IMG/VR virus record: IMGVR_UViG_3300035187_002872
Span: 1 to 28,757 of that record
DNA length: 28,757 nucleotides
From: a virus
Direction: 5' to 3' (one strand)
Notes under the pieces: generated by a model
The model's database searches: none
Told to the model about the DNA's origin: nothing
Seen by the model: only the letters and a program-made list of their open reading frames with translations
Program-made: the position numbers and the translations under genes
In this document: positions 5,260-28,540 of the stretch, piece after piece
Position numbering within the stretch: position 1 is the first letter of the stretch
Layout: each line of letters begins with the position of its first letter

Positions 5260-5267
5260 TATTTATT
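5260..5267 (-). promoter_or_regulatory. Candidate late promoter (AATAAATA) ahead of structural genes
   Basis: The octamer AATAAATA on the minus strand overlaps the last base of the HNH gene and lies about 50 nt before the ATG at 5210. It would allow structural genes 5210 to 1280 to be transcribed independently of the HNH gene. Confidence 0.5.
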
Positions 5268-5638
5268 CAAGTTGCATTATTGCGTCTTGGGCGATAAGAA
5301 AATAGATTTGTAGGAGGATCTGGTTTCATCCACTCTTCTATTTTATTAAATTTATCTTCACTATAAAAATCTTGCTGGACATACCATAACTTCCAGTGCT
5401 CGTGTCCCTTCGATTGATTACAAGAATGGCAGCAGCACACTACATTCTTTGTGAAATCTGCACCCCCTTTACATTGTGGAATGATATGATCAATTGTTAG
5501 ATTGTCTTCAGATCCACAATAAGCACATTTATTTTCCCAACTGTCCTTTATGTTTTGTCTCCATAATCGTTTCGCATCCCCACTATTTGTCACATATAAA
5601 TGAAACAAATATTCTTGAGGCGAATGGAGAGGAACCAT
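5267..5638 (-). CDS. HNH endonuclease, free-standing (123 aa)
   Basis: The protein has a canonical zinc-stabilised HNH module: CAYCG at about residues 37-41, LTIDHIIPQCKGG with the DH pair of the active site, then N and a second Cys pair in the CCCHSCNQSKG stretch. The length of about 120 residues fits small phage HNH proteins, either mobile homing endonucleases or packaging-associated nucleases. It sits alone between a small-protein cluster and the structural block rather than beside terminase genes, which favours a homing-type element. A late-promoter motif ends 20 nt upstream of the ATG. Its cleavage target is unknown. Confidence 0.85.
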   Translation of the reverse strand: MVPLHSPQEYLFHLYVTNSGDAKRLWRQNIKDSWENKCAYCGSEDNLTIDHIIPQCKGGADFTKNVVCCCHSCNQSKGHEHWKLWYVQQDFYSEDKFNKIEEWMKPDPPTNLFSYRPRRNNAT

Positions 5639-7345: not shown

Positions 7346-7501
7346 TTATTGGTGCTTTTCAAGATAAGACATTAAATCTTTGAGATAGTCAGATGCATTA
7401 TTCCAATCACCACCAAATCTTTCTTCTAGATGATTGTAAAGTTGTTCCGCCTTCTCAGGTTCAAGTCCAGTTGATTGAATAAATCCTTCTTTAGTAATCA
7501 T
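7346..7501 (-). CDS. Small hypothetical protein (51 aa)
   Basis: The ATG at 7501 overlaps the end of the homing endonuclease gene by 11 nt. The product (MITKEGFIQSTGLEPEKAEQ..., ending LMSYLEKHQ) looks like a small helical protein: a helix-turn-helix-sized N-terminal part, then an FGGDWNNASDYLKDL segment. It is acidic and shows no catalytic motif. Function unknown; position suggests co-transcription with the endonuclease gene. Confidence 0.6.
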   Translation of the reverse strand: MITKEGFIQSTGLEPEKAEQLYNHLEERFGGDWNNASDYLKDLMSYLEKHQ

Positions 7502-8105
7502 AGTGTTTTAATGTTTTTTCTGTAAGGTTAATGATTTCAGTTATGGGTAATTCTACCACATAACACTCCGTATATCCACTATCCGTGGTCTCAAAATCAA
7601 TTTTATAATCTTGGTATTTTTGATGAATAAACTTTTCAAGATGATGCACTTGATGATGTATTCCTTTCCATATTTTGATTACACTATGTAATTTATTTTT
7701 AGTGTGATTTGATAACTTATTAAAACTTCTACCCACCTTATAAACCAATTTGCCCTCAAGATAAACAATAACCAAATACAAATAATCCACATCAAAATAT
7801 CTTTTACTCCAAGGATTTTGATAGTTGTTTCCTTTTAACTTCTCACCATATTTTCTAACTCTCTCATCAGTTTCTTTGGTTAATCCTTTATTCCAAGATA
7901 CTTGTGCTCCTTTTACTCCCTTATTCCAAGGTTCTTTTCCTATTTGCCATTCAGACCAATTTCTAGAAATACCACAAGATTTGATATGTTTATATACAGT
8001 TGGTTTTGGAACATTCAACTGCCTTGATATTTCATATGAAGACAAACCAGACAGATACATTTGTTCCCATACCTTTTTATCTTTATCAGTATATCTTACA
8101 TTCAT
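7491..8105 (-). CDS. Free-standing homing endonuclease, HTH + NUMOD3-like + GIY-YIG/T5orf172-like (204 aa)
   Basis: Three parts are visible. Residues 1-50 form a resolvase-type helix-turn-helix (MYLSGLSSYEISRQLNVPKP, then TVYKHIKSCGIS). Residues of about 55-95 carry NUMOD3-like phrases, GKEPWNKGVKG and SWNKGLTKET, which are DNA-minor-groove-binding modules of homing endonucleases. Residues 105-204 read YLYLVIVYLEG, VYKVGRS and GYTECYVVEL, resembling a GIY-YIG/T5orf172-type nuclease fold, although the GIY and YIG triplets are degenerate. The gene follows the psbA terminator directly and has its own TATAAATA promoter. Synechococcus phage S-PM2 has a free-standing endonuclease (F-CphI) next to its intron-bearing psbA; this gene is in the analogous place, but orthology is not shown. 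Confidence 0.75.
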   Translation of the reverse strand: MNVRYTDKDKKVWEQMYLSGLSSYEISRQLNVPKPTVYKHIKSCGISRNWSEWQIGKEPWNKGVKGAQVSWNKGLTKETDERVRKYGEKLKGNNYQNPWSKRYFDVDYLYLVIVYLEGKLVYKVGRSFNKLSNHTKNKLHSVIKIWKGIHHQVHHLEKFIHQKYQDYKIDFETTDSGYTECYVVELPITEIINLTEKTLKHYDY

Positions 8106-8128
8106 TATGGTCTGCTCATAGTTATTAT

Positions 8129-8136
8129 TATTTATA
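8129..8136 (-). promoter_or_regulatory. Late promoter, exact T4 consensus TATAAATA
   Basis: The minus strand reads TATAAATA, identical to the T4 late promoter. It lies immediately after the T-tract of the psbA terminator and 23 nt before the endonuclease ATG (8105). This suggests late, psbA-independent expression of the endonuclease. Confidence 0.65.
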
Positions 8137-8161
8137 AAAAAAGAGACCTTTGCAGGTCTCT
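8136..8161 (-). terminator. Intrinsic terminator downstream of psbA
   Basis: Read on the minus strand, an 8-bp perfect stem (AGAGACCT / AGGTCTCT, loop of 4) is followed by seven T. It lies about 30 nt past the psbA stop codon and before the next gene's promoter. Confidence 0.85.
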
Positions 8162-8188
8162 CTATTATATCATATACTTAGTTTTATA

Positions 8189-10521
<2,333 letters not shown>

Positions 10522-10684
10522 TTTTCGTTAAAGGGTAAGTATAGGTTCAAGGGGATTGAACAGTTACATTATACTCCACAGCACCCTCCGCTGTGGATAT
10601 GAGAGACGTAATTTACCCTCCCATAGGTCTCGGTTAAACGGGAGCACAAGATTAAGGATTTGTTACTTTCCTTAACGTGTTGTT
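10522..10684 (-). promoter_or_regulatory. Structured psbA 5' leader (about 160 nt)
   Basis: Between the predicted start of transcription (near 10684) and the psbA ATG, the minus strand can form several stems: TTAAGGA/TCCTTAA; CTCCC/GGGAG; GAGAC/GTCTC (10603-10607 with 10627-10631); and an 8-bp stem TCCACAGC/GCTGTGGA (10575-10597) whose loop exposes GGAGG. A minimal start-stop ATGTAA (10569-10564) follows GTGGAG. No Shine-Dalgarno lies next to the psbA ATG, so the fold could control translation. I cannot match it to a named RNA family. Confidence 0.5.
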
Positions 10685-28366: not shown

Positions 28367-28540
28367 CTTTAGTATATAACGGAGTTGCGCTTCTCCAGAC
28401 TGCTCGCCACTTGCCCTTTGACTGGAGGCAAGAAACCAGGCGGGGTTTCCCCATCCACACCAGTCGGCATATTTAATGTCCAATCCGACGAGGACAAAAT
28501 GGGTCATTGACTCCACCACCTAGTTTACTGACAAACTAGG
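28340..28540 (-). ncRNA. Structured leader RNA ahead of the fucose operon; candidate wcaG-type regulatory RNA
   Basis: Reading the minus strand 5' to 3', stems seen are: CCTAGTTT/AAACTAGG (28519-28540), GTCGG/CCGAC (28463-28489), GGGG-AAA-CCCC (28442-28452), CTTGCC/GGCAAG (28410-28432) and the terminator (28340-28366). The loop of the CTTGCC hairpin holds TCCAG, complementary to a downstream CTGGA (28394-28398), which would form a pseudoknot. The terminator arm is complementary to GCAACTC, giving a terminator/antiterminator switch. The wcaG RNA motif is known from cyanophage leaders of exopolysaccharide genes such as wcaG (fcl); this site fits by location. A match to that family was not tested. 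Confidence 0.6.

Follow-up and report, generated by a model that had tools for sequence, protein, structure and literature searches.

A 28.8-kb IMG/VR virus fragment (the window, the whole 28,757-nucleotide stretch analyzed) carries a psbA gene interrupted by three group I introns and, directly behind it, a gene for a nuclease-like protein, P0001. The question raised by this locus is whether P0001 mobilizes a psbA intron in trans and, if so, which one. The first-pass annotation had pointed to intron 2 or intron 3 and stated that two of the three introns are ORF-less. The count holds. Introns 2 (209 nt) and 3 (232 nt) have no nuclease ORF because they are too short, and intron 1 holds an HNH-type ORF of 231 aa (9478-10173). 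Table 1 lists the features of the locus. Among named phages, S-SRM01, which infects freshwater Synechococcus, is the closest relative at the psbA locus.

Table 1. Features of the psbA-nuclease locus in the window
Feature	Coordinates	Strand	Basis
psbA, four exons (about 10198-10521, 8960-9391, 8490-8750, 8189-8257)	8189..10521	-	
psbA intron 1, group I, codon 108, boundaries approximate	9387..10197	-	Rfam
psbA intron 2, ORF-less group I, 209 nt, codon 250/251; proposed nuclease partner	8751..8959	-	Rfam RF00028
psbA intron 3, ORF-less group I, 232 nt, codon 337/338; not the partner	8258..8489	-	Rfam
psbA terminator-like hairpin	8140..8163	-	
TATAAATA, element resembling a T4 late promoter, between the psbA terminator and P0001	8129..8136	-	
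P0001, free-standing homing-endonuclease-like gene, 204 aa	7491..8105	-	ORF, relatives, dN/dS
P0001 N-terminal HTH DNA-binding domain, residues 6-46	7968..8090	-	profile and fold
P0001 linker, residues 51-76, containing two WNKG repeats	7878..7955	-	
P0001 C-terminal degenerate GIY-YIG nuclease domain, T5orf172 type, residues 105-204	7494..7793	-	
51-aa ORF overlapping the P0001 stop codon	7346..7501	-	
Proposed mobile unit, spanning intron 2, the 3' exons with intron 3 inside, the nuclease gene, and the 51-aa ORF	7346..8959	-	

The nuclease gene and its surroundings

P0001 is encoded on the minus strand with its ATG at 8105 and its stop codon at 7491. The psbA stop codon and the P0001 start are 84 nt apart with the terminator-like hairpin in between, which bears out the earlier description of a free-standing gene directly beyond the psbA terminator. 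There are 16 relatives of P0001 in IMG/VR with protein identities of 81-96%, all of them stand 3' of psbA, and dN/dS is 0.05-0.18 in almost all pairs. These relatives and the low dN/dS show that P0001 is not a chance ORF. The 51-aa ORF that follows is conserved across P0001-type loci. Pfam and PHROG searches returned no family for it at a meaningful score, and it is also located 3' of the nuclease gene where this slot is occupied by unrelated enzymes of the Endo VII type (L065, L073, L116). A 123-aa HNH endonuclease gene lies further downstream (5267-5638, minus strand), and an HNH gene is similarly placed in S-SRM01. A PhotoRC-II RNA is found upstream of psbA (10561-10657, minus strand), and a wcaG RNA (28396-28497, minus strand) marks the edge of a large sugar-nucleotide/glycosyltransferase-like gene cluster.

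The nuclease gene had also been assigned its own exact late promoter, and this claim was not confirmed. The TATAAATA element is present about 23 nt upstream of the P0001 ATG and is kept in 12/12 P0001-family loci of the neighbor sample described below, where it occurs in 16/23 F-CphI-type loci compared to 5/18 loci without a recognized HEG. However, the whole window contains two copies compared to 3.9 (SD 2.0) expected by chance, and at this frequency the motif alone is not evidence of a promoter.

Domain organization and predicted fold of P0001

Profile and fold matches agree on the N-terminal HTH domain that the first-pass annotation had recognized. This region has Pfam/NCBIfam HTH matches, PDB profile matches to 2lvs and gamma-delta resolvase, and fold matches to GcrA, Tc3, Hin, and resolvase. 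The part that had been called NUMOD3-like was not recovered. There is no NUMOD3 among the Pfam matches up to E = 10, and the segment is instead a linker of two WNKG repeats that is common to a second group of nucleases (L040-type) at high identity.

The C-terminal domain departs from the canonical GIY-YIG motifs, with LY in place of GIY and YKVG in place of YIG. The L and Y of the first motif, the K and G of the second, and Glu157 are invariant in 19 aligned members. The usual catalytic Arg position of GIY-YIG enzymes is not Arg in P0001-type proteins; Arg is present in relatives. A match to phrog_681, a family of phage endonucleases, covers residues 94-199 (E = 7e-12). The match of the domain alone to PF10544 (T5orf172) is weak (18.5 bits, curated cutoff 20), and relatives of P0001 reach E = 1.4e-4 against the same family. 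When modeled on its own (pLDDT 82.5), the C-terminal part matches viral T5orf172/CapR-domain proteins, including ICP1 ORF88, with E values of 3e-7 to 6e-4 and a probability of 1.00. The top six PDB rows after VIA-align re-ranking are the GIY-YIG domains of Slx1, UPF0213, and UvrC, with modest Z scores of 3.0-4.7 and an rmsd of 3.3-3.7 over 60-88 residues. Foldseek did not detect a significant PDB match to the catalytic domain, and a Foldseek search of the PDB with the whole model gave only weak matches, of which the credible ones cover the HTH. The GIY-YIG assignment draws on the VIA-align re-ranking, the viral structure library, and the profiles. The degenerate GIY-YIG part proposed earlier is thus borne out by fold (T5orf172 type, ICP1 ORF88) and is weak by profile.

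The suggestion that the fold is different from HNH also holds, as the model matches GIY-YIG/T5orf172 structures. Pfam matches up to E = 10 include no HNH domain, and the PHROG matches labeled HNH cover just the HTH part of the protein. The dN/dS of the catalytic domain is mostly 0.02-0.10, which indicates that the domain is kept functional. DNA cleavage has been shown for the T5orf172 nuclease ICP1 Gp88 (PMC8263062). By fold, the predicted structure places P0001 as a degenerate GIY-YIG nuclease-like protein in the T5orf172 subfamily.

psbA introns and target sites in nuclease carriers

Carriers of the P0001-type N-terminal family comprise 25 contigs, the window included. The L040-type group (8 contigs) combines nearly the same HTH and linker with another GIY-YIG catalytic half. 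An intron at the intron 2 position (intron 250) is present in 18/25 carriers, an altered codon-250 site in 7/25, and a standard intact site in 0/25. The altered sites read NICA (L003), SIVA (L053, L117, L127), and SIVNAHAYFG (L124, L125, and L129, an apparently frameshifted member left out of the models), and the psbA alleles of the altered-site carriers are divergent overall. Non-carriers nearly always have NIVA^AHGYFG at codon 250. Of at least 80 psbA loci with the intact site, 80 were fetched independently, and 62 have a visible downstream region. The N-terminal family was found at 0/80 of the loci listed and thus at 0/62 of those with a visible downstream region, and 3/80 carry catalytic-half relatives joined to other DNA-binding parts. 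Exclusion of the intact site therefore goes with the DNA-binding half.

The association was quantified in loci sampled via the downstream metallophosphatase gene (58 loci, 40 clusters after 97% dereplication). Intron 250 occurs in 9/12 carriers compared to 0/46 non-carriers in this neighbor sample (p = 2e-8, and p = 1e-3 after 97% dereplication); the carriers represent about six lineages, so p-values based on contigs overstate independence. No other psbA intron site comes near this strength, and there is no association at 334 or 337, where the intron-337 count misses L122 (the same contig as L004), which has intron 3 but a last exon too short for tblastn. F-CphI with intron 334, a pair established by experiment, gave p = 9e-5 in the same test and 6e-4 after dereplication.

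Intron 3 is found in just 4/25 carriers, and the carriers checked without it keep an intact HERNAHNFPLD intron-3 site. Intact intron-1 and intron-3 sites coexist with the nuclease in many carriers. Intron 1 was rejected as the partner on this ground, for its own HNH ORF, and for its lack of association. Of the two introns named in the first-pass annotation, intron 2 is retained by association, exclusion, and the conversion block described below, whereas intron 3 is rejected. Intron 250 is present without a P0001-type nuclease in S-SRM01, L036, and L043, where the downstream region is visible. The intron can therefore be maintained, or be served by something else, when this nuclease is absent.

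Two observations concern the site itself. The rare NICA and SIVA variants also occur in contigs without the nuclease (L141-L161), some of which have F-CphI or HNH genes after psbA. The exon ends at intron 2 (8735-8970) read GTGGCT^GCTCACGGTTAC in intron-bearing alleles and mostly GTTGCT^GCTCACGGTTAT in intronless ones. Because the intron guide GGTCACG allows pairing with GTG, the GTGGCT end could be explained by splicing as well as by co-conversion.

Five related loci (L006, L010, L011, L012, L015) contain a conversion block. Their pairwise identity is mostly 80-95% in the upstream exons and mostly 96-100% in the block, which starts where intron 2 is inserted and takes in the intron, the 3' exon, the nuclease gene, and the co-transferred 51-aa ORF; identity then collapses. 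The zero point of the identity profile is shifted two bases from the intron 2 start. Third-position differences are 14-35% in codons 109-250 compared to 0-7% in codons 251-336, with p from 5e-5 to 2e-9. Intron 2 differs at 0-1 of 209 positions within this subgroup, and upstream of the intron the first mismatch lies 13-61 nt away. Nuclease distance among eight carriers correlates with downstream exon distance (r = 0.95, p = 0.002) and not with upstream exon distance (r = 0.16, p = 0.19). Chance linkage by descent alone is made less likely by where the block begins and by the distance correlation. In its sequence pattern the block is a signature of collaborative homing, as break repair at codon 250 would leave.

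The limits of the mobile unit are demonstrated in these relatives and are extrapolated to the window. Intron 2 of the window is 99.5% identical to that of the L006 subgroup, and the 3' exon and nuclease have diverged, so there was no recent exchange of the whole unit between the two subgroups. The block is not shared by S-SRM01, which has intron 250 and no P0001-type nuclease. The F-CphI loci as a co-conversion control are confounded by other introns; the L055/S-SRM01 pair is 97% identical in the intron, 100% in the 3' exon and intergenic region, and 95% in F-CphI.

Proposed collaborative homing at codon 250

These data suggest, with a probability of roughly 80%, that P0001 is a GIY-YIG/T5orf172 homing endonuclease in collaborative homing with psbA intron 2. 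The HTH and WNKG linker would bind psbA near codon 250/251 (AACATCGTGGCT^GCTCACGG) in a co-infecting phage without intron 2, and the C-terminal domain would cut the recipient gene at this position. Donor-templated repair would then give the recipient a copy of intron 2 together with the 3' psbA exon, the nuclease gene, and the 51-aa ORF. Each carrier state is associated with the nuclease and may confer protection, because intron 2 would split the carrier's own target and the altered codon-250 site would shield intronless carriers. Points against collaborative homing are that the sharp block is seen inside one subgroup, that the Arg is not conserved, that intron 250 and altered sites also occur without this nuclease, that psbA is divergent overall in the altered-site carriers, that the carriers form few independent lineages, and that the PDB Z scores are modest, up to 4.7.

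An unlikely alternative is plain intronless homing, in which the nuclease spreads only itself via a cut in the 3' half of psbA and intron 2 is a passenger in the tract. A free-standing gene between conserved genes is the usual layout of the T4 seg and mob genes (PMC2988022), and three carrier lineages are without the intron. However, these intronless carriers have altered codon-250 sites, there is no such exclusion at the intron-1 and intron-3 sites, and the block extends to one side only, starting where the intron is inserted. It is also improbable that P0001 is linked to intron 2 by descent as a relic without catalytic activity or as a repressor domesticated for DNA binding. The absent GIY-YIG Arg would fit a relic, and T5orf172-derived repressors such as CapR exist (PMC10448857), but the catalytic domain is under strong purifying selection with Glu157 invariant, ICP1 Gp88 still cuts without another core residue (PMC8263062), and the relatives contain the conversion block. 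Mobilization of intron 3 (codon 337), or action at the F-CphI site (codon 334/335), is very improbable even though the nuclease fills the slot held by F-CphI in S-PM2 and S-SRM01 and intron 3 is present in the window, because 21/25 carriers lack intron 3, those checked keep its site, and neither 334 nor 337 shows an association.

The mechanism favored here, collaborative homing, is known already and was named for F-CphI, which pairs with the S-PM2 psbA intron (Zeng et al. 2009, as outlined in PMC6083498). According to that outline, the S-PM2 locus also has a free-standing nuclease just after psbA in the same slot and an ORF-less group I psbA intron, which shields the donor from self-cutting as intron 2 may do here. 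F-CphI has an Endo VII (DHHRN) motif and an intron at codon 334/335, whereas P0001 has a GIY-YIG/T5orf172 domain with an HTH and codon 250/251. An F-CphI ortholog (83%) occupies the slot in S-SRM01. P0001 was rejected as an F-CphI ortholog; the best BLASTP match spans 3 residues at E = 19.

T5orf172 homing endonucleases occur in ICP1-like phages, one of them beside an intron-split terminase gene, for which collaborative homing has been suggested (PMC10448857). The ICP1 enzymes, including Odn/Gp88 (PMC8263062), and P0001 have the nuclease fold class and the modular joining of DNA-binding and nuclease parts in common. The ICP1-type DNA-binding part is CapR/DUF723/RepA_N, whereas P0001 has the HTH and WNKG linker with psbA as the proposed target. 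The one-site association, the exclusion pattern, and the conversion block of the P0001 family go beyond the ICP1 case. T4 mobE and the nrdB intron are an example of trans homing, and in T4, homing is classically marked by co-conversion (PMC2988022). The resemblance to mobE and the seg genes (SegG) is that a free-standing nuclease cuts at a distance and, through co-conversion, mobilizes itself or an intron close by; unlike P0001, MobE is an HNH enzyme and the seg genes are unpaired with an intron at the cut site. The L040-type nucleases have the same slot and the same codon-250 relation (2 contigs with intron 250, 6 with an altered site), but their catalytic GIY-YIG domain differs from that of P0001 and keeps the Arg position. 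No paper describing P0001 or intron 250 was found in the literature searched, a scope outside which most subscription journals fall.

The interval between psbA and the metallophosphatase gene (L044-L123) is a nuclease hotspot that holds F-CphI-like, canonical GIY-YIG, and HNH genes and T5orf172 genes with CapR-like or other N-termini. Canonical GIY-YIG ORFs directly follow psbA in L043 and L036, and an F-CphI-like subgroup of 40-45% identity (L044, L054, L056, L094, L096) goes with intron 298. psbA introns are found at about ten sites (61, 77, 92, 108, 136, 183, 218, 250, 298, 331-337), with six in L043 and at least five in L029. The psbA of S-SRM01 (L018, MW015081, 4221-7121) is annotated as two partial genes; its sequence resembles that of a single gene interrupted near codons 92, 250, and 334 by introns. 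Catalytic-half relatives whose DNA-binding parts are CapR-like or of other kinds lie 3' of psbA in L046, L111, L149, L207, and L215, and the introns near codon 331-337 in these loci hint at further nuclease-intron pairs.

At the sequence level, what is new is the nuclease class with its apparent psbA target codon, the exclusion pattern with altered sites, and an apparent natural swap of the catalytic domain. We lean, with little more than even confidence, toward a history in which one HTH-WNKG module stayed fixed on psbA codon 250 while two GIY-YIG domains were swapped behind it, the slot was reused by unrelated nucleases, each with its own intron, and site mutation served as an alternative form of self-protection. 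Collaborative homing is known from a few cases, F-CphI in S-PM2, T7-like phages, and the related mobE case, and the origin of such pairs is an open question (PMC10448857). The psbA system described here would be a second one, at a different site and with a different nuclease class, and it is directly testable. Natural sequences are enough to read off its partner intron, its target codon, its mobile unit, and the self-protection that an intron or a changed site would give, and the natural domain swap separates target choice from catalysis. The system resides in a photosynthesis gene, and the phages that carry this gene are abundant.
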